Assembly (NCBI RefSeq): GCF_003703395.1
Contig: NZ_RDQN01000001.1
Location: 62,001 to 126,000, forward strand
DNA length: 64,000 bases
Direction: 5' to 3'
From: Pseudoxanthomonas spadix
Lineage (GTDB): Bacteria; Pseudomonadota; Gammaproteobacteria; Xanthomonadales; Xanthomonadaceae
A model generated the notes under the pieces. It ran no database searches. It saw nothing but the letters and a program-made list of their open reading frames with translations, and was not told the origin of the DNA. Positions 53,654 to 63,993 of the stretch are shown here, piece by piece. A program made the position numbers and the translations under genes. Position 1 is the first letter of the stretch, and the number at the start of each line of letters is the position of its first letter.

Positions 53654-54604
53654 ATGGATGTCCTGCTCGCCAATCCCCGTGGCTTTTGCGCCGGTGTCGA
53701 CCGTGCGATCGAGATCGTCAAGCGCGCGATCGAGGCGCTGGGCGCGCCGATCTACGTGCGCCACGAGGTCGTGCACAACCGTTTCGTGGTCGATGACCTC
53801 AAGGCCCGCGGCGCGGTCTTCGTCGAGGAACTGGATGAGGTGCCCGACAACAGCACGGTCATCTTCAGCGCCCATGGCGTGTCCCAGGCGGTGCGCCAGG
53901 AGGCCGAGCGCCGCGGCCTGAAGGTCTTCGATGCCACCTGTCCGCTGGTGACCAAGGTCCACCTGGAAGTGGCCCGCCACTGCCGGGCCGGTCGCGATGT
54001 GGTCCTGATCGGCCACGCCGGCCACCCGGAAGTGGAGGGCACGATGGGCCAGTGGGACCGCGAATGCGGCACCGGGCGCATCTACCTGGTCGAGGACATC
54101 GCCGGGGTGGCCACGCTTCAGATCGAGCAGCCGGACAATTTTGCCTATACCACCCAGACCACGCTGTCGGTGGACGACACGGTCGGCATCATCGCCGCGC
54201 TGCGGGCCAGATTCCCCGCCATGCAGGGACCGAAAAACGACGATATCTGCTACGCCACCCAGAACCGCCAGGACGCCGTGCGCGACCTGGCGCGCCAATG
54301 CGATCTGGTGCTGGTGGTCGGCTCGCCCAACAGCTCCAATTCCAACCGCCTGCGCGAGCTGGCCGAGCGCGATGGTGTGGAGGCCTACCTGATCGACGGT
54401 GCGCAGGAGATCGACCCGGCCTGGATCGACGGCAAGCGCAAGGTCGGCGTCACCGCCGGCGCCTCGGCCCCGGACGTGCTGATCGACGGGGTGATCCAGC
54501 GCCTGCGCGAGCTGGGCGCCGGCGGGGTCAGCGAGCTGGCCGGCGAACCGGAAAGCATGGTCTTCGCCCTGCCCAAGGAGCTGCGCCTGCAGCTGGTCAA
54601 TTGA
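53654..54604 (+). CDS. ispH: 4-hydroxy-3-methylbut-2-enyl diphosphate reductase
   Basis: A 316-residue iron-sulfur enzyme, the last step of the MEP isoprenoid pathway. The three cluster Cys are in [29 protein letters not shown] and [24 protein letters not shown] and [11 protein letters not shown] complete the substrate site. It lies 113 bp after lspA. Its stop (TGA inside TTGACC) overlaps the -35 of the tRNA-Thr promoter. Confidence 0.96.
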
Positions 54605-54629
54605 CCAGGCCAGGCCCGGTCCCTAGAAT
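54601..54629 (+). promoter_or_regulatory. Original tRNA-Thr promoter, now driving the half-tRNA
   Basis: -35 TTGACC (54601-54606), a 17-bp spacer and -10 TAGAAT (54624-54629). The predicted start falls at the tRNA-Thr 5' half at 54640. Its closeness to ispH suggests it is the native promoter from before the island inserted. Confidence 0.7.
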
Positions 54630-54639
54630 CGCGCTCCTC

Positions 54640-54679
54640 GCCGGAATAGCTCAGTTGGTAGAGCGGCGCATTCGTAATG
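54640..54679 (+). pseudogene. 5' half of tRNA-Thr(CGT) (left att copy)
   Basis: Forty nucleotides identical to the first 40 of the intact tRNA-Thr at 63918. After ATTCGTAATG the sequence diverges and no T-arm or acceptor 3' strand follows. It keeps a strong promoter and may still be transcribed. Confidence 0.9.
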
Positions 54680-54720
54680 ACATGCGCAGGGTAATTGTGT
54701 TTCACGGAAAGGTTTAAACC

Positions 54721-54978
54721 ACCGGCTTTAGCCGGTCAGCTTTAGCTACGACAATGGCTGCAACCGAGGAGGGGTAGCCATGGAGTACAGATACGGTAGT
54801 CATACGGTGTACGCGATCGAGTAGCACTTCGTGTGGGTGACGAAGTGCCTCTACAAGGTGTTGATAGTGACCTTGCGGAGCGGGTGCGGGACTTAGTTCG
54901 GGAGACTTGTGAGGCGTTCGAGATCAGGATTGTGAAGGGAGTGGTGAGCAAGGATCACATCTGGTTGTTGAGTTCTTA
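54721..54978 (+). pseudogene. Decayed IS200/IS605-type TnpA with left-end hairpin
   Basis: A perfect subterminal-type hairpin ACCGGC-TTTA-GCCGGT (54721-54736) precedes a degenerate Y1 transposase start at 54780: MEYRYGSHTVYAIE, then an in-frame TAG at 54822-54824, HFVWVTKCLYKV, a frameshift, and AERVRDLVRETCEAFEIRIV with KGVVSKDHI. Homology stops shortly after DHIWLLSS, before the catalytic Tyr region, and the zorD 3' end begins there. It is a 5' fragment only. Confidence 0.75.
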
Positions 54979-57900
54979 CACGGAAAAGCCAAGAGACAAA
55001 TCCGAAAATTCTTCCAAGGTAAGCCCTTGCTCCGGGGCCAACATATCGTTCGATAGCACACGCTTTGTCGCAAGGCGCTTGGCAACGCGTTCCTCAAAGC
55101 TCTCAAAGCCATCGCCCAACACGGTTGGGTAATAGACGAAAACTTCCTTTTCTTGCCCAATCCGATAAGCGCGATCCGTCGCCTGATCTTCCTTAGCCGG
55201 ATTCCATGGGCGGGTGAAGTGGATGACGTGATTTGCGGCCTGGATGTTCACACCAAAGCCCACCGCAGTTGTGGAGAGCACGATCGCTCCAAAGCCCGGC
55301 TTGGCCTGGAACGCATCAATGATCGCTTGGCGCGAGTCATTTGCCCCGGCCTCTACGCTCGTGCTGCCATTGACGATTGAAGCTTGATAGTTCAATCGGC
55401 TGGCAATGGCGCGTTGGATCAAACGCTGGATGTCACGGAATTCTGTGAAAACGATGACTTTCTCGCCCGCGGCCCGAATCTCTTGCAGCCTGTCGACCAG
55501 CCATGCCAGCTTCGGTGAGTGACGAAGGTGTTCATCTAGCGGCAGGAACTCCGATCGATCATCCGCAGCCGCAAGAGGATTGGCGCAAATCTGCCTGAGT
55601 TGATGGAGCAGGCTCAATGCAGCAGTACTGCCACCCTTTCCGGAGTCAACTGTTTCGCGAAACTGCCTAGCAGCCGCGGCATAGAGACCGCGCTGTTTGG
55701 CTGACATCGCGAGTTCGCAGGGTATCTCAGTCTTCGGCTTGAGATCTGCAACCTCGGCCTTCATTCGCCGTAGCGCCCACGGCGAAATCTGCTCGCGCAA
55801 TACCTCAACCTTCTGCTCGTGACCCTCAGACCTGAGCTCGATCTGTTGCCTGAACACTTTAGTGAACTTGGTCAGGGAGTCGAGCAGACCTGGTTGGAAG
55901 AAGTCGAAGAGACACCAGAGATCCGCAAGTGAGTTCTCCACTGGCGTGCCCGTACAAGCGATCTTGAAATCGGCTTGCATCGCCTTGGCGGCCCGAGTCA
56001 CCATGGCAGACGGCGTTTTGATCTTTTGGGCCTCGTCGCAAACGAGTACACCCCACTTCTCCCGCGCCATGGAGAGCTGGTAATCGCGCAAGGTCTCGTA
56101 TGTGGTCAGCACAAACGCAGCGCCATGTGCAAAGCCGGGATTGAGTGCCTTTTTGACGCCCAACTCCCGAAGTTCAGGTCCGATCTCGCGCGCACTCAGC
56201 CGGTGAAGGGCCAAGTCATCACCATAGAGTGTGATTGTCGCGCCCTGCCTGCCATCGAGAAATTTGTTGATCTCTGCTTTCCAATTCTCCAATAGGGATA
56301 CAGGGGCCACGATCAGGCACGGCTTAGGCGCTGGCGCAGTCTGCCGATACCAGGCCATCAGCGTCAGCGCCTGCAGCGTCTTGCCTAGGCCCATATCGTC
56401 GGCGAGCAACACCCCTCGCACACCGTCACCCCGCTGTCGCATACGCCCTTGCATCCAGGCGACGCCTTCGACCTGGTGATCTTTCAGCGCAATTTCCGGA
56501 CGAAGCGCAGCAGGCGCTTCATAGACGTCCTTCACTCGCGCTTGCTGAGTTTCCTCACTTGGGTACTCAAGACCTTCAATGTTGTGAAGGATTCTGAGCG
56601 AAAGCTTTTCCGCAGGCGCGGGGTTCTTGGGGCTCTCAATTCTCTTTTCGCCGGCTGGCTTGGCCAGTTCTTTCATCCAGGCTCGTGCTTCGGGCGTTGG
56701 GATTTCCTTTTCGATCCCAGGTACAGACACAGTGGTGTGGCCTTCACGTTCCGCCACGTCCACGCGCCGGCCGAGCTCGTGGACATCATCGGGGCCAAGG
56801 CGCCCCTCTGTCGCCGCTCCCGTAGCAGGGTCTACTGCAACATACTGGCCGGCACCCTCGATCCAGCCCTCAGCAGGCGAACGGTTCTGTATTTTTGGCA
56901 CGATGATGGGCTTGCCATCGAAACCGACGACGCGATCGCTGTAGTGGGCCAGGTCAAAAAGCGTCTCGACACCGATCACGCTGCCAACCGCTTCCTTGAA
57001 GTGGGCTTGCCGTAGACGTGCAAGGCTTTCAAGTGTCAGGCCAGAGAGCAGAACCCGATGTTTCTTCCAGCGGGCAACGCCAAAGCCCTCAGAGCCACTT
57101 GCCTCTCCCAGCAGCGAATCGAATTCGGAAGCGTGAAAACTGCCGGCGAATACGCTCTCACTCCCGCCAACCGGATCAACCAGCACTGCATCCCAACTAC
57201 CGTCAGCGTCTGCAGGCTGGAGCTCTAGTTCCCACTCCTCGATACCAGCCGCACGTTTGGCTTCAGCGAAACGCTCCGGAGAGATGACCTGCGCTGCAAC
57301 TTCGCCGAGGACGACATATGGGTCATGCATAAAGGCGTCGGCTTGCTTCCCAGCCAAGCGCCGACCTGGCATAGATTTGATCTGCCGACTGACCTCACGC
57401 ACTTGTTTGGAAAGCACAACGTGACTCATGCCGCCTTCCGCATCCGTAACGTCATAGCGACCGCGGACCGATTGATACCGATCAAATTGCGGAAGCCACC
57501 CCTCCGGCGCGCCAACGGGATGCGGCTCCACCTCTACGACCTGGGTTTCAGCAGTCTTATCCTGCTTCAAATGGATCTGAAGTTTGTCGGCGACAATTAC
57601 CGGTGAGTGCTCCAAATAGCGATCCATTGTCGCACCTGCCCATCTGGCGGCCTCTTGGACCTTGCCCATTTGCAACATACGGCGGTCCGCATCCCAGTCT
57701 TCGCCGCATTGCGCGAGCTCAGCCATCGTCTCTAGGAGCGCAAAAGCTGATTGCGGCAGTAAGATATCCTGGCCGGGCGTGGTCAACACCGCGCCAAGAC
57801 GTTCAGCCACAAGCGCCTGGCCATCTTCCGCGATCCACCCTTCAAGCGTGACCCGAAATGTTGTGTCGGTTGGGGTCCCGTGCGAGAGAATTACGGGGCT

Positions 57901-58173
57901 TAGCCTGGCGGTCTGCGGCAACTTCAGCAGATGCAAGCTTGATACGTGGTCGCTCTCGGAAAGAAGCGCATAGACCTTTTCCCATGGGATCAGGTAGCCA
58001 GCTCCATCTTCGAGCGCGAAGCCCTCGTCGGCGAGCTGCAACAGATAGATCGAGCCCGGATGAGTACTCCCTTCCTCTGGCGCTCCTTTCCAACCGTCAG
58101 ATGCAGCAGAGAACTCAGGAGCATTCATGGGAATGATCTCGGGGCTCTCCCCCTTCCAAAAGCGAAGCTTCAT
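54976..58173 (-). CDS. zorD: Zorya type I protein ZorD (SNF2-family helicase)
   Basis: A 1065-residue protein. About 540 residues of N-terminal sequence of unrecognised fold precede an SNF2/SWI2 ATPase: motif I LLADDMGLGKTLQALTLM (Lys about 598), motif II VCDEAQK (713-716), motif III TGTPVENSLADLWCLFDFF, then the RecA2 motifs VFTEFRDIQRLIQRA and VGFGVNIQAANHVIHFTRPW with QATDRAYRIGQEKEVFVY. In type I Zorya, ZorD is the effector ATPase/nuclease acting on invading DNA. Start ATG overlaps the zorC stop (ATGA). Last gene; its 3' end abuts the IS200 remnant but the frame looks complete. Confidence 0.93.
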   Translation of the reverse strand: MKLRFWKGESPEIIPMNAPEFSAASDGWKGAPEEGSTHPGSIYLLQLADEGFALEDGAGYLIPWEKVYALLSESDHVSSLHLLKLPQTARLSPVILSHGTPTDTTFRVTLEGWIAEDGQALVAERLGAVLTTPGQDILLPQSAFALLETMAELAQCGEDWDADRRMLQMGKVQEAARWAGATMDRYLEHSPVIVADKLQIHLKQDKTAETQVVEVEPHPVGAPEGWLPQFDRYQSVRGRYDVTDAEGGMSHVVLSKQVREVSRQIKSMPGRRLAGKQADAFMHDPYVVLGEVAAQVISPERFAEAKRAAGIEEWELELQPADADGSWDAVLVDPVGGSESVFAGSFHASEFDSLLGEASGSEGFGVARWKKHRVLLSGLTLESLARLRQAHFKEAVGSVIGVETLFDLAHYSDRVVGFDGKPIIVPKIQNRSPAEGWIEGAGQYVAVDPATGAATEGRLGPDDVHELGRRVDVAEREGHTTVSVPGIEKEIPTPEARAWMKELAKPAGEKRIESPKNPAPAEKLSLRILHNIEGLEYPSEETQQARVKDVYEAPAALRPEIALKDHQVEGVAWMQGRMRQRGDGVRGVLLADDMGLGKTLQALTLMAWYRQTAPAPKPCLIVAPVSLLENWKAEINKFLDGRQGATITLYGDDLALHRLSAREIGPELRELGVKKALNPGFAHGAAFVLTTYETLRDYQLSMAREKWGVLVCDEAQKIKTPSAMVTRAAKAMQADFKIACTGTPVENSLADLWCLFDFFQPGLLDSLTKFTKVFRQQIELRSEGHEQKVEVLREQISPWALRRMKAEVADLKPKTEIPCELAMSAKQRGLYAAAARQFRETVDSGKGGSTAALSLLHQLRQICANPLAAADDRSEFLPLDEHLRHSPKLAWLVDRLQEIRAAGEKVIVFTEFRDIQRLIQRAIASRLNYQASIVNGSTSVEAGANDSRQAIIDAFQAKPGFGAIVLSTTAVGFGVNIQAANHVIHFTRPWNPAKEDQATDRAYRIGQEKEVFVYYPTVLGDGFESFEERVAKRLATKRVLSNDMLAPEQGLTLEEFSDLSLGFSV

Positions 58174-59789
58174 CGATAGAACCCTCGGCTGGATGCAAAT
58201 CTGAATCCGGCCACATTCATTGCCTCAATCAGCTCATTGGAAGGTTTAGAGCTAAGTTCAACCCAATAGCTGCCGCCTTTGTTGCGGTTATCGACAATCG
58301 CCTTTCGTGTCAATGACAGCTCCCGTGCAAGGTGCGCCGGCAACGAAGGAAGAAGCTGATCAACGTCAGCTATCGCAGACGGCGCGTTGGCCGCTCTCTT
58401 TGTCGGCGATCGCCCACCTTGTTGAACTCCGTTTGGCCGGATGCCGACGCGAGCGAGCGTCCGGTCAAACTCAGACTCCCATGGCCCATGGTGCGAGAGC
58501 CTGTACTTTGCTAATCGCTGATTCTTCAGCTGATATAGCGAAAGACTTTTGTCGTTGACTTTGAATGGCCGCGTGCTTTCTTCGTAGCCATAGCACGCAT
58601 TGCCGGTTTCTGCGAATTCAACAAACCAATGATCCCCGAGCTTCATTAACATTGCGATGTTGGTCGGGGTCGAGCTCGTAAGCCATCCCAATCGTCCCTG
58701 CCTTTTTTTTATGAAACGGCCAATATCCGTATTGCTCGTGGAATTAAAAAACGAGCCAAGGACCAACTTTGTAAACTGCATCCTTCCCGTGAATCTCTTC
58801 CAGTACTCGAAGCGGCGCTGATCCATTGCACTGAGCACCCTGGATGAGCTCTTGATCAACTCGAAGAAATCAGCCAAATCTTCCTCTGCCAAACAGCGGC
58901 AGATCCATTGCCTCGCCTCATCGGATACCTGTGACCAACGATGAGATCGATCGCTCAGATCCAGCTGGGGATTGCCCCACGCATCGATCACACGCTCCAG
59001 GATCTTCTGATTCAGCAAGTTGTCTGGGGACTTGGCTGCACGTTCGACCAATGCGGTAAGAACAGCGTCCTGCTGGTTAGGAAATCGAGATAAAAGACTC
59101 AGAAATCGCGGGGAACTCCGCTCGAACTCAACGTCGTTCATGTCTTCCAACTTCGCGAGCGCGTTGCCCACAAATTCGGCCCAGAACCAACTGCTACCAG
59201 GTATTTCCACATGATCTGACAGCGCGTCCAGCGCACGCTCATCGCCAGCCGTCCACTCAATCACGTAGCGCTTGGAGGGGGTTAAGCCGAACACATCCTT
59301 ATGTTCTTCAACTGTTGGCAGCCAACCGGGCGGAACCCTCTGGGCCTTCAACTTCGGCAACGTCCTTTGCAGGAAACCTCTGTAGACTTCCCTCTCCACG
59401 CTTTCACCGAGAAGAAAATATGCGACGAAGACAGTGCGCCAGAGAAGAGGACCAAGCAGAGAGTCCCCAATCCTTTTTTGCCAACGCTGCATTAGCGGGA
59501 CGCTAAGGTCTTGCCTGGCAGCAATAGACTGTCCGTTGAGAAGTTCCGAGCTCGCAACAAATTGAGACGCGAGGATCATATCATCCCGCTCACTCAAAGC
59601 ATTAGCGCCCTCATTGAGGAGTCGCCTCAGGGATTTGTTGAACCACTGAGGTGAGTCGAAGCCTGCCGGGGTAGTGCCTAGCTCTTCGCGCATGACACTG
59701 ACCGCTTCTCTGAGCCGCTTCAGCGGAACAGGCGTCACCTGTAACTCGTGCACGGGTGCCATCATCCTCTGGAGAGCGTGGGTGAACAT
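58170..59789 (-). CDS. zorC: Zorya type I protein ZorC (EH-signature domain)
   Basis: A 539-residue soluble protein placed as ZorC by size, order and sequence character: a mainly helical body with FEYWKRFTGRMQFTKLVLGS and GDHWFVEFAETGNACYGYEE, the region typical of the EH-signature family, and a basic C-terminal tail domain (LARELSLTRKAIVDNRNKGG). ZorC is thought to work with ZorD downstream of the motor, probably binding DNA. The ATG at 59789 overlaps the zorB stop (TGATG); a GTG at 59801 would add four residues. Confidence 0.85.
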   Translation of the reverse strand: MFTHALQRMMAPVHELQVTPVPLKRLREAVSVMREELGTTPAGFDSPQWFNKSLRRLLNEGANALSERDDMILASQFVASSELLNGQSIAARQDLSVPLMQRWQKRIGDSLLGPLLWRTVFVAYFLLGESVEREVYRGFLQRTLPKLKAQRVPPGWLPTVEEHKDVFGLTPSKRYVIEWTAGDERALDALSDHVEIPGSSWFWAEFVGNALAKLEDMNDVEFERSSPRFLSLLSRFPNQQDAVLTALVERAAKSPDNLLNQKILERVIDAWGNPQLDLSDRSHRWSQVSDEARQWICRCLAEEDLADFFELIKSSSRVLSAMDQRRFEYWKRFTGRMQFTKLVLGSFFNSTSNTDIGRFIKKRQGRLGWLTSSTPTNIAMLMKLGDHWFVEFAETGNACYGYEESTRPFKVNDKSLSLYQLKNQRLAKYRLSHHGPWESEFDRTLARVGIRPNGVQQGGRSPTKRAANAPSAIADVDQLLPSLPAHLARELSLTRKAIVDNRNKGGSYWVELSSKPSNELIEAMNVAGFRFASSRGFYR

Positions 59790-60505
59790 CAGAGCTGGCA
59801 CCGATCCGCGCTGGCCATGACATCTGTACCGGCATCAACAGGAGCGGAATGGGGCTCGTCAATGCCGTAGAACTGAATTCTCAGCTCGACTCGACGGCTT
59901 TCATCAGCTGTTGTTCTCTGATTATTAAACGATACGCCGCCAGCCAGGAAAAGCTTTCGCACACGAGCCAACTGCTCATCACTCAGAGCAAGGCTCTTAT
60001 TCTTTGCCGGATCCATCAAGAGGCAAAGAACCCACTCGGATCGCTGCAGACTTAGATGAAGGTTGTAAAGATACCCACCCTTGGTGTCGGTGTATCCTTC
60101 CACGACGACCTGCTTCAACCATTTCTTGCCCAGCTCTCCGTCTGCAGCATTCAGAACAGCGGGGACTAACTGTGCGAGCGCCCCATCTGCCTCTGCTGGG
60201 AGCCGGTAGCTGTTGAAACCAAACGTTCCAACGGTTGGGAAGGAGATGCGCTGATCTGCGCAGTTGATCTGAATTTCAGGTACGCCCGATAGATCACGGC
60301 CCAATTGTTCACAGACCGATTGAATTTCCCGTGCCCTGATCTCCGCGGGCCCCTCCACTACTCGCGTTACAGCAGCGATCGTGACCGCCATGGCACTCAG
60401 GAACAACACCATCATCGCCGTCATCAAATCTGCATAGCTAATCCAGAACGGCCTCTCGCCATCATCTTTGTTCCGGCGCCGTCCTCGGGCCATGCTCCCA
60501 AACAT
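59789..60505 (-). CDS. zorB: Zorya motor protein ZorB (MotB/OmpA-like)
   Basis: A 238-residue stator partner. A basic cytoplasmic start precedes one helix with the proton-binding Asp in PFWISYADLMTAMMVLFLSA; counted from the ATG at 60505 it is Asp26. An OmpA-like peptidoglycan-binding domain follows (VVVEGYTDTKGGYLYNLHLS, then RVELRIQF). ATG 60505 has AGG upstream and lies 4 bp after the zorA stop; a longer frame to 60538 is possible. With ZorA it should form a proton-driven rotary complex anchored to the wall. Confidence 0.93.
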   Translation of the reverse strand: MFGSMARGRRRNKDDGERPFWISYADLMTAMMVLFLSAMAVTIAAVTRVVEGPAEIRAREIQSVCEQLGRDLSGVPEIQINCADQRISFPTVGTFGFNSYRLPAEADGALAQLVPAVLNAADGELGKKWLKQVVVEGYTDTKGGYLYNLHLSLQRSEWVLCLLMDPAKNKSLALSDEQLARVRKLFLAGGVSFNNQRTTADESRRVELRIQFYGIDEPHSAPVDAGTDVMASADRCQL

Positions 60506-60509
60506 GTGC

Positions 60510-62399
60510 CTATCCCCTACGCTCGTCCGATGCGGCAATCAGGGACATACGTTCAACGATATCGCGCAGCATGAGGACTGCGCTCCCGAGCTCTTTATCA
60601 AAGTCAGTCATGAGATGGTTCAGCACAGCAGCGGTCTTAAAGCCAAATTGCTCCATAGCGTCACCAAGCTTGTCAGTGACCATCTCCGAATACTCGCCAA
60701 AATCGCGCGCAGCTTCTTGCCCCTTACTCAGCGCAAGCTGAATATCTTTCAACGTTGCCTCGCGCGCACTCGCTTCAGTCGCCATCAAGCCAGAAATACC
60801 TTCGACACGACTGCTAGCTTGAGACAAGGCTTGAGATGCAATGGTCAGCGTGTCTGTGCTGGTCCGGAGGCTGGCTGCACTCTGATCCAACCTGGAACCT
60901 AGCTGTCCAGATTGCTCATGCAGGCCGGCCAGCGATCCACTGGTCCTCTCCAATCGATCGACCACTTCGTTCAACGCCGCCATCATCGATGCAACCTGCG
61001 CAGCACCGCTCTCAAGTTTCCTAATGGACTCAAGCGTCACATCGTAAATGCCTTCTGCGAGCTCTGCTGCTCGGCGAGAAGACTCTTCCCCGGCCTTCTG
61101 CACCTCAGCGGAAGCTTCAACAATTCGACGCGTCGCGTCCGCAGCAGCCTCGCCCACTTGGTTTGCCCCAGCGGCCTGGGCAGATGCCATCCTTTCTACT
61201 GCATTCTGAACGTGTGTCAGCATTTGCACCTGAGCACCGCCCAGCGCCTCTGATTGCTGGCGCTCATGTGATGCGAGAGATGACAGAAGTTCCCCCATTG
61301 CACGCTGGATGCCCTCAGAAGACGCGTTAGTAGCGCTCTGCATGTCGTCGACAAGTTCTCGGAGGCTCTCCTCGACGCGCATGATTGATGCAGCAGTCTG
61401 CTGCATCATGACGCTCAGATGTCCCATCTGAGCTCCCATCGTGTCGCGCATCTGGGCCATGAAGGTCCCCATCAAGCTCTCGATCATCTTGCCAGCCGAA
61501 GCGGACTGTTCTTGGCTTGCGAGCTGAACCGTATCGGCAATCTTTTGGAGCGGCGCCTGCAGGCTCGTCTCCAGACTTGCACCAATATCGTTCGAAAGCT
61601 GATGCGTTGCTTCAATTTGACGTTCGGTCAAATTGGTCAAAAGAGCCTTCAGGTCTTCAACCAGGCTTTCCTTGAGCTGCTTTGTCTGTACTGCACCATC
61701 TTCAGACGACCTCACCAACTTGGAAAGGTACTCCTCGCCGACACCAGACTTGAAAAGGCCGTCCAGTGCCAATGCAATCGACGTGATCGCGTGCACGTTC
61801 GCTGCATACAGTAGCTTCTCTAAGATCGTGCAGATCATCGCCAGGCCAATCGCAACCGCAGACAGAAGGAACGCACTACCGACGTGGCCGAAAAGACCGC
61901 CGAGACTCGCTTTCAGTGCGTCTGGTTCCACTGCTTTTACATCAAAGCTCTGTAAGCCCGCGATAAGCCCGCTGAAGGTCGCGATGATTCCGAGTCCGGT
62001 AAAAATCCCCGGGAGATGCTTGAAGAACTCTGTGTGCAGAGTGCTGTCGACCACCAACTCCGCATTGAAGAACGACTCTGCGGGGACGGTTGCACGAACG
62101 GCTACGATTTCTCGATCAATACCTTGATTGGCAGTCTGCTCATGCAGCGTGTCCTCGTACTCCGCCCAGTTTGGTCGGAGCCGACTCTTGGCGAAGAGCT
62201 TGCTGAGTTCGCGCTTGACGAGGGGGGGCGACTTCCCCGCGTGTAGGCGAACCGCATTCCCCAGTCGCTTCAGTGACACAAGAAGCGCAGTCGCCCGGAA
62301 CAAGAAAAAGAAGAGAAAACAGAGAAAGAGGACTGTGATGATCGAAGCAATCAGAGTATGTAGCCAATCGCTGGTTGCTGCGACCCAAAGCATGTTCAT
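60510..62399 (-). CDS. zorA: Zorya motor protein ZorA (MotA/ExbB-like)
   Basis: A 629-residue membrane protein. Helices lie at about 14-40, 128-150 (LPGIFTGLGIIATFSGLIAG, with Thr141) and 172-200 (HVGSAFLLSAVAIGLAMICT). The MotA/TolQ core is followed by a cytoplasmic tail of about 400 residues of near-continuous heptad-like coiled coil (rich in Ala, Gln, Ser, Glu). The long tail is the hallmark of ZorA and is proposed to signal from the motor to ZorC/D. It is about 100 residues shorter than my recollection of E. coli ZorA. GAGAAG lies before the ATG at 62399. Confidence 0.93.
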   Translation of the reverse strand: MNMLWVAATSDWLHTLIASIITVLFLCFLFFFLFRATALLVSLKRLGNAVRLHAGKSPPLVKRELSKLFAKSRLRPNWAEYEDTLHEQTANQGIDREIVAVRATVPAESFFNAELVVDSTLHTEFFKHLPGIFTGLGIIATFSGLIAGLQSFDVKAVEPDALKASLGGLFGHVGSAFLLSAVAIGLAMICTILEKLLYAANVHAITSIALALDGLFKSGVGEEYLSKLVRSSEDGAVQTKQLKESLVEDLKALLTNLTERQIEATHQLSNDIGASLETSLQAPLQKIADTVQLASQEQSASAGKMIESLMGTFMAQMRDTMGAQMGHLSVMMQQTAASIMRVEESLRELVDDMQSATNASSEGIQRAMGELLSSLASHERQQSEALGGAQVQMLTHVQNAVERMASAQAAGANQVGEAAADATRRIVEASAEVQKAGEESSRRAAELAEGIYDVTLESIRKLESGAAQVASMMAALNEVVDRLERTSGSLAGLHEQSGQLGSRLDQSAASLRTSTDTLTIASQALSQASSRVEGISGLMATEASAREATLKDIQLALSKGQEAARDFGEYSEMVTDKLGDAMEQFGFKTAAVLNHLMTDFDKELGSAVLMLRDIVERMSLIAASDERRG

Positions 62400-62501
62400 T
62401 TCTTCTCAATCCCCTTTATTAGCTCTTCAACTTGCTGGCGTTTTCCCACTGCATCCCAGCCATGATTCCCAGTTCCCACTGGCATTCGGTCTCCGCCAGC
62501 G

Positions 62502-62660
62502 CTACTTAGGCATCAGCCGAAGTTGCGAGAGAGCTTCTAAGTAGCTCTCCACCACAACCTTCTCACCCTTGGTGCCGGTAGTGTAACCGCGTCCTCTCAT
62601 CAAATCAGGCGAGAACCAAGTGCCATCGCTGGCTATCGGTACTAACCTGCAGTCAGCACC

Positions 62661-62668
<8 letters not shown>
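62502..62668 (-). pseudogene. C-terminal remnant of an unknown gene upstream of zorA
   Basis: A minus-strand frame reads TGEYSCGADCRLVPIASDGT, WFSPDLMRGRGYTTGTKGEK, VVVESYLEALSQLRLMPK and stops at 62502-62504, 102 bp before zorA. It has protein-like composition and two Cys, but no start of its own: upstream it runs into the IS3-family sequence. It may be the tail of a gene cut by the insertion. I do not recognise the family. Confidence 0.35.
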
Positions 62669-63765
<1,097 letters not shown>

Positions 63766-63877
63766 CTTAGCCGGGATCCGTGGCAGATCTGTGGCGTTGG
63801 CGGGCTATGTGCGGCATCGGCTTGGATCGTCAAAATTTACCCAAGTCATTGAATTTTACGGAAAGTATGTTTCCTTC
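63766..63877. other. Short AT-richer island right margin without a gene
   Basis: About 110 bp between the IS3 remnant and the tRNA-Thr promoter. No coding frame of note. It is AT-richer than the host DNA and belongs to the island's right end. Confidence 0.4.
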
Positions 63878-63907
63878 TTGCTTGGAATTCCGGGCCGTTG
63901 CTATGAT
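63878..63907 (+). promoter_or_regulatory. Island-borne promoter of tRNA-Thr
   Basis: -35 TTGCTT (63878-63883), an 18-bp spacer and -10 TATGAT (63902-63907), with the start expected near the tRNA 5' end at 63918. It would replace the native promoter, which stayed with the half-tRNA at the left end. Confidence 0.6.
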
Positions 63908-63917
63908 GAATGGCCTC

Positions 63918-63993
63918 GCCGGAATAGCTCAGTTGGTAGAGCGGCGCATTCGTAATGCGTAGGTCGCAGGTTCGACTCCTGTTTCCGGCACCA
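63918..63993 (+). tRNA. tRNA-Thr(CGT)
   Basis: A 76-nt tRNA: acceptor GCCGGAA/TTCCGGC, D-arm GCTCAGTTGGTAGAGC, anticodon loop TTCGTAA (CGT), T-arm CAGGTTCGACTCCTG and encoded CCA. Its first 40 nt are the right copy of the island direct repeat; the 3' part is chromosomal. Confidence 0.96.

Follow-up and report, generated by a model that had tools for sequence, protein, structure and literature searches.

A divergent type I Zorya operon on an island lodged in a tRNA-Thr(CGT) gene of Pseudoxanthomonas spadix

The zor genes and their identification

The window analyzed here is a stretch of 64,000 nucleotides from Pseudoxanthomonas spadix (assembly GCF_003703395.1, contig NZ_RDQN01000001.1, positions 62,001 to 126,000), in which positions 54976-62399 are occupied by four open frames of the minus strand that match, in order, the genes zorA, zorB, zorC and zorD of the type I Zorya anti-phage system. 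Four nucleotides separate zorA from zorB, zorB and zorC meet in a TGATG overlap, and zorC and zorD in an ATGA overlap. The operon is carried on an island of about 9.2 kb with lower G+C content, placed between a 5' half-copy of a tRNA-Thr(CGT) gene and a complete tRNA-Thr gene (Table 1). A complete type I Zorya system of four tightly coupled, same-strand genes had been proposed at this place from the letters of the DNA (hereafter the original prediction), and the frames were found in the same order and with the same outer ends.

Table 1. Features of the Zorya operon and of the island that carries it (window coordinates).
Feature	Coordinates	Strand	Description
zorA	60510..62399	-	629 aa; MotA/ExbB/TolQ-like motor ring, cytoplasmic tail of ~425 aa
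zorB	59789..60505	-	238 aa; MotB-like stator, D26, OmpA-type peptidoglycan-binding domain
zorC	58170..59789	-	539 aa; DNA-binding component with EH signature, overlaps zorD by ATGA
zorD	54976..58173	-	1065 aa; SNF2-type helicase/nuclease effector
Left island edge	54636..54679	+	44-bp exact copy of the tRNA-Thr(CGT) 5' half; tRNA nt 1-40 = 54640-54679
Right island edge, complete tRNA-Thr(CGT)	63918..63993	+	ARAGORN; RF00005, 73.4 bits; BLAST in own genome
Promoter-like site of the host tRNA-Thr	54601..54629	+	TTGACC, 17-nt spacer, TAGAAT; by eye, consensus match only
Island-borne promoter-like site for tRNA-Thr	63878..63907	+	TTGCTT, 18-nt spacer, TATGAT; by eye, consensus match only
IS200-type relic (TnpA fragment)	54720..54985	+	bounds approximate, by eye
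Decayed IS3-type element	62702..63666	+	HTH_21 (PF13276), 54.6 bits; ALIL pseudoknot RF01497

The four proteins were searched against the defence-system profiles of PADLOC, as the original prediction had suggested. Type I Zorya profiles (ZorA1, ZorB1, ZorC1 and ZorD1) were the best match for all of them, each across most of the profile, and solved type I proteins match all four as well. The genes are moreover adjacent, ordered and on one strand, the arrangement by which a type I system is recognized.

ZorA matched PDLC00599 with 1041 bits over residues 1-628, and its best matches among PDB sequences were 8qyy (E=2e-72) and 8qyd (E=6.5e-71), entries named as Zorya proteins; no Pfam match was obtained at E<=0.001. 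Three hydrophobic segments are followed by a tail containing one proline, in agreement with the MotA/ExbB-like core and long tail that had been predicted. ZorB matched PDLC00611 (303 bits) and the Pfam families OmpA (30.3 bits) and MotB_plug (26.0 bits), with 8qyd_F as best PDB match (E=1.9e-67), a chain titled 'Membrane protein' from the same entries as those matched by ZorA. The stator aspartate anticipated for this protein is kept as D26, next to an OmpA-type domain predicted to bind peptidoglycan. The longest zorB frame opens at a TTG (60538), but neither the family profile nor the solved protein extends upstream of the ATG further on (60505); this ATG is therefore most likely the start and would lie 4 nt past the zorA stop.

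ZorC, expected to be a mid-size EH-signature protein, proved to be one both by sequence and by fold. It matched PDLC00616 with 549 bits and the Pfam family EH_Signature (PF15611) with 94.5 bits, against a cut-off of 27.5, and its best PDB sequence match was the ZorC of 8r68 (E=3.3e-43). This entry was also the sole PDB match of the predicted fold at E<=0.001 (E=1.2e-13; template modelling score 0.67 by target and 0.50 by query); the model was built from 4 sequences, an alignment that included ZorC-like proteins from the loci L085, L087 and L088, and is of moderate confidence (mean predicted local distance difference test score 68.9), with the first ~90 residues poor. E395 and H437, in the numbering of a longer frame of 543 aa (E400 and H443 in E. 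coli), are kept and form what we take to be the EH-signature pair. Profile starts and the alignment place the most likely start of zorC at the ATG inside the overlap with the zorB stop.

ZorD matched PDLC00632 with 1224 bits and showed Pfam SNF2 (192 bits) and Helicase_C (60 bits) domains. Its best PDB match was 8qy7 (E=4.7e-203, residues 43-1059), an entry titled only 'DEAD/DEAH box helicase' which is presumably the E. coli ZorD. All four motifs compared with the E. coli plasmid copy are kept (DDMGLGKT, DEAQ, TGTPVEN and DQATDRAYRIGQ), as fits the SNF2-type ATPase that had been foreseen. ZorD is also the protein that bears on a different assignment, in which another cluster of MotAB-like genes plus a helicase, Dpd-like or some other SNF2 defence operon, would merely resemble Zorya: the DpdE profile, the best of the rival profiles, covers nearly the whole length of ZorD with 680 bits. 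The Zorya profile scores far higher on the same protein, however, and ZorA, ZorB and ZorC matched nothing except Zorya profiles in PADLOC at E<=0.001 (17, 6 and 8 matches, all eight of ZorC being ZorC profiles); the best PDB matches of these three are type I Zorya proteins, as we take 8qy7 to be for ZorD. ZorC and ZorD thus match Zorya profiles and neither fits another MotAB-helicase cluster better; we rejected the Dpd-like cluster on the two ZorD scores and consider any such assignment extremely improbable.

Two other candidates were discarded. A type II or type III system would have ZorE, or ZorF together with ZorG, beside zorAB, where the partners are here ZorC and ZorD, and the best scores of type II/III profiles were 32 (ZorA2), 22 (ZorA3) and 46 bits (ZorB2) vs the much higher type I scores of ZorA and ZorB. 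A chance resemblance or a pseudogene was ruled out because all four frames are open across nearly the full lengths of the profiles.

The original prediction had also held that the frames are open with key residues present, and this was borne out by 13 of 14 compared positions of ZorA, ZorB and ZorC, which are identical to the type I copy of an E. coli plasmid, in addition to the ZorD motifs; the remaining position is conservative. The positions, numbered as in the E. coli proteins and mapped onto those of the window, were E86, E89, T147 and S184 of ZorA, D26, L150, Y151, N152, L155, R159, R208 and R213 of ZorB, and E400 and H443 of ZorC. L150, R208 and R213 of ZorB were our own choice, and the functional positions are otherwise mostly those which we take to be given by Hu et al. 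(Nature 2025). We regard the operon as a complete type I Zorya anti-phage system with a probability of about 0.93.

Divergence and distribution of the operon

The operon is a new, divergent member of an already known system, the new detail being the site and manner of its lodging. Identity to the proteins of the E. coli plasmid copy was 30% for ZorA, 49% for ZorB, 26% for ZorC and 37% for ZorD; compared to G259, a genome of the same family, the values were 39%, 54%, 30% and 46%, respectively.

Several observations speak against a type I assignment. ZorC and ZorA share no more than 26% and 30% of their residues, respectively, with the E. coli plasmid proteins. ZorA is 100 residues shorter than its E. 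coli plasmid counterpart (629 vs 729), with a difference that falls in the tail and not in the hydrophobic segments, which align. Its E89 (E. coli numbering) is replaced by D83. At the ZorB position that seems to match H186 of Serratia there is a Tyr, with a Phe in the E. coli copy, a comparison made by eye from the E. coli alignment, the Serratia sequence itself lying outside it; passages of PMC11890865 describe this histidine as required for defence. Furthermore, none of the four proteins reached the type I equivalog cut-offs of NCBIfam (ZorA1 297 of 750, ZorB1 288 of 400, ZorC 202 of 490 and ZorD 909 of 1500), a cut-off being a naming rule and not a biological criterion. Each of these models is nevertheless the best NCBIfam match of its protein, and the ZorA_3 subfamily cut-off was reached (280 vs 250).

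The distribution of Zorya in the family and the order is patchy. Of 247 genomes of the family, four had a match to the ZorC profile, while the ZorA profile matched 14 of 299 genomes of the order at E<=0.001; three of them, including our own, did so at E<1e-100 and the other 11 weakly, the best at 8e-10. Among 72,556 plasmid records, 24 matched ZorA (20 of them Klebsiella), the best with 36% identity over 65% of the query and none covering 80% of it; a tblastn search of 50,697 phage records gave no ZorA match at E<=1e-5. A profile search of genome contigs with the ZorD alignment was keyed on the SNF2 motifs, and the best 80 loci are mostly generic SNF2 proteins. The first four among them (L085-L088) align with the query up to its last residues, starting from residue 41-82, and L085, L087 and L088 were taken as Zorya relatives by the size and order of their genes. 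L087, from a metagenome-assembled genome of Methylococcaceae, has an extra frame of 408 aa between the zorB-sized and zorC-sized frames (L087:3374-4600). A literature search on Zorya together with Lysobacter found no paper, which is no proof that none has been published.

The tRNA-Thr island and its counterparts in the genus

The edges of the island are formed by an exact direct repeat of 44 bp (54636-54679 and 63914-63957), that is, 40 nt of the tRNA and 4 flanking bases. To the left lies ispH (53654-54604), and the tRNA-Thr half-gene starts 35 nt past its stop, where relatives have the whole tRNA-Thr. We compared 25 genomes, our own (G000) and 24 others of the genus, and in eight of them a complete tRNA-Thr was found within 100 nt after ispH, a site that we consider empty (G002, G003, G006, G007, G009, G010, G015 and G018). 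Since the complete gene follows ispH in these genomes and only its 5' half does so here, the host tRNA-Thr was split in its anticodon region. The promoter-like site of the host gene now precedes the half-gene only; the same arrangement stands before an intact tRNA in G010, G009 and G007, and the sequence upstream of the complete right copy differs from that of the left one.

The composition of the island is also distinctive: the 1-kb blocks of 55001-63000 have a G+C content of 0.53-0.59 vs 0.62-0.74 for those of 1-54000, and the G+C content at third codon positions is 0.59-0.62 in the zor genes vs 0.80-0.91 in ileS, an lspA-like frame and ispH. Of the two neighbours of the operon, which had been described as decayed insertion sequences (IS), one is a relic of an IS200-type TnpA on the left and the other an IS3-type relic on the right, so that the description was essentially right; both lie inside the larger island bounded by the half-gene and the complete tRNA-Thr, which the original prediction did not mention. 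The left relic gave a PF01797 match of 22.3 bits, under the cut-off of 23.0, in the frame 54833-55132, with stops in its earlier part. The right one contains an ALIL frameshift pseudoknot (RF01497, 62740-62856, 102.8 bits) and is 70% identical to a second copy in our own genome (G000:C25:86620-87587); ALIL and HTH_21 together presumably mark IS3-type elements. Close to each edge on the inner side (54699-54712 and 63854-63867) there is a similar short sequence (TTT-ACGGAAAG-like), which may be a recombinase site or may be due to chance.

The reading we favour is that the operon was acquired horizontally, together with an island that inserted beside ispH into the tRNA-Thr(CGT) gene, in its anticodon region. 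A tyrosine integrase acting on tRNA-Thr probably brought the island in, and the insertion would have left the 5' half of the host gene behind while supplying a new promoter and a new 5' half. It counts against this account that no PF00589 match, and hence no tyrosine integrase, was found within the coordinates of the island, a search that covered this recombinase family only. The half-gene might instead be the scar of an older, unrelated insertion, which Zorya would have entered at a later time through IS-mediated transposition or homologous exchange. The missing tyrosine integrase, the IS relics lying between the operon and both edges, and a sequence past the left half-gene that differs from the one common to G008, G012, G014 and G022 are what lead to this alternative; however, the space from edge to edge is taken up by the operon and the two relics, and the genus has other, comparable islands that combine this type of edge with defence cargo. 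Such a late arrival seems to us rather unlikely, and acquisition of the operon with the island is the account we follow below.

tRNA-Thr 5' halves occur in 7 of the 25 genomes (G000, G008, G012, G014, G016, G021 and G022). Thirteen genomes, our own and twelve others, were searched whole for half-genes, and the other 12 in the stretch after ispH, up to 19 kb. In six of the seven the half lies upstream of the complete copy on the same strand, and the two are on different contigs in G012; ispH is not the neighbour of the tRNA-Thr in G008 and G014. The other ten genomes have a complete tRNA-Thr 1.1-11.5 kb after ispH (G004, G005, G011, G013, G017, G019, G023 and G024) or on another contig (G001 and G020). 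In one of these (G017, locus L060) the usual geometry was observed, the complete tRNA-Thr coming first and a 34-nt copy of its 3' end lying 9.8 kb downstream; thus both geometries of insertion seem to occur at this gene.

Between a half and a complete tRNA-Thr, G016, G022 and G014 (loci L165, L166-L167 and L168-L170) carry one integrase of 404 aa, at least 94% identical among them, and G014 has two such islands in tandem with a truncated second copy of the integrase between its two halves. Relatives of this integrase at E<=1e-60 were found in 8 of 38 genomes of the genus, our own not being among them, and within the window it is absent at E<=1; it also has relatives in phages, the best being that of Pseudomonas phage vB_Pae_U1 (46% over 98%). 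Ten chosen proteins of these sibling islands (4 from G016, 5 from G022 and 1 from G014) were searched with PADLOC. The cargo of G022 matched DarG (356 bits), DarT (91 bits), ShosA (297 bits) and, weakly, ShosT (36 bits), that of G014 the Hachiman protein HamB (971 bits), and that of G016 gave AAA and PDC-S36/HNH matches of at most 69 bits. The sibling islands share with that of the window a tRNA gene interrupted at nearly the same point, with the 5' half at one edge and the complete tRNA at the other; they differ in having the integrase and, in G022 and G014, other defence genes, whereas the window island has Zorya without that integrase.

Passages of PMC10865867 describe phages that integrate with an attachment site inside a tRNA gene, commonly at the anticodon loop. 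There, either the site extends over the 3' half of the gene, which is rebuilt, or a whole tRNA gene comes with the phage; in the Zorya island, by contrast, promoter and 5' half appear to have come with the incoming DNA. A broader proposal is that tRNA-Thr(CGT) may be, in this genus, a recurrent site for defence islands of an unusual geometry. Promoter and 5' half, not the 3' half, would be exchanged for those of the arriving DNA, and the rebuilt tRNA would depend on the promoter of the island. The Zorya island would be a member without an integrase, moved in trans by the integrase of a sibling and held in place because loss of the promoter end would cost the cell its tRNA-Thr. We put this proposal forward tentatively, as a possibility somewhat short of even odds. 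A literature search on Zorya with tRNA-Thr and an integrase found no paper, which likewise does not prove that there is no published work.

To the right of the window, 3.8 kb separate the tRNA-Thr from cytochrome oxidase genes (L056 995-4823, G000:C1:125994-129822), with frames whose products resemble, by eye, a hemerythrin-like protein, an alcohol dehydrogenase and a manganese catalase. This stretch is missing in G010, in which the oxidase region starts ~0.2 kb past the tRNA (DNA search with the G010 flank after the tRNA).

Proposed working and comparison with known systems

The mechanism, expression and present activity of the operon are matters that we infer, the mechanism being drawn from parts of PMC11890865 and PMC12904381. 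By homology with the type I systems studied, five ZorA and two ZorB would form an ion-driven motor in the inner membrane. Injection by a phage would disturb the cell wall, upon which ZorB may grip the peptidoglycan and the motor may turn or rearrange the long ZorA tail; the tail would then recruit and activate ZorC, which would bind DNA, and ZorD, the SNF2-type protein, which would degrade it, near the entry point. Passages of PMC11890865 report that defence requires the stator aspartate, the residues that bind peptidoglycan and the ZorA tail, and that with type I Zorya infected cells are less fit and the host DNA shows signs of damage; they also note that others saw a first-line defence.

That the operon is functional, as the original prediction supposed, is suggested by its intact frames and kept residues. 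It might also be a true type I Zorya by descent that no longer protects the cell, being unexpressed, or mistuned after its transfer, and decaying like its IS neighbours. Relic elements do flank the operon on both sides, the integrase of the comparable islands is absent, and a promoter scan found no sigma-70-like promoter in 62380-62800, upstream of zorA, a weak test and a further point to set against our account; a terminator scan upstream of zorA found nothing either. Nevertheless, all four frames are open across nearly full profile lengths, nearly all the functional residues compared are kept, the junctions are tight, and the operon remained open while its neighbours decayed. We consider a loss of protection unlikely.

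A divergent type I Zorya with a shorter ZorA and 26-49% identity to the E. coli plasmid copy can serve to test what the length of the tail and the divergence of ZorC mean for defence. Moreover, the integration site offers a concrete way to study how defence systems move within the genus: at one and the same tRNA gene there is Zorya in this genome, and there are genes of Hachiman, DarTG and ShosA in those of other species.

Among known type I systems, that of E. coli (8qyd, 8qyy, 8r68 and 8qy7) shares with the operon its gene order, domains, stator aspartate, peptidoglycan-binding residues, EH pair and SNF2 motifs; the plasmid copy differs in the sequence divergence and longer ZorA described above. 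The type I ZorAB of Shewanella sp. ANA-3 (PDB 8VVN; PMC11890865) has in common the type I motor and the long ZorA tail and is a far weaker match to the proteins of the window (62 bits for ZorA and 28 for ZorB). Two further type I systems of the same family, in G259 (L079) and G256 (L080), have the four genes in the same order, with ZorD 46% and 40% identical, respectively, and sit at other loci than the operon of the window. The ZorD of G256 (L080:4964-8728) is 1254 aa long and has a C-terminal extension that by eye resembles an Mrr nuclease, an extension that neither the ZorD of the window nor that of the E. coli plasmid (1082 aa) has.

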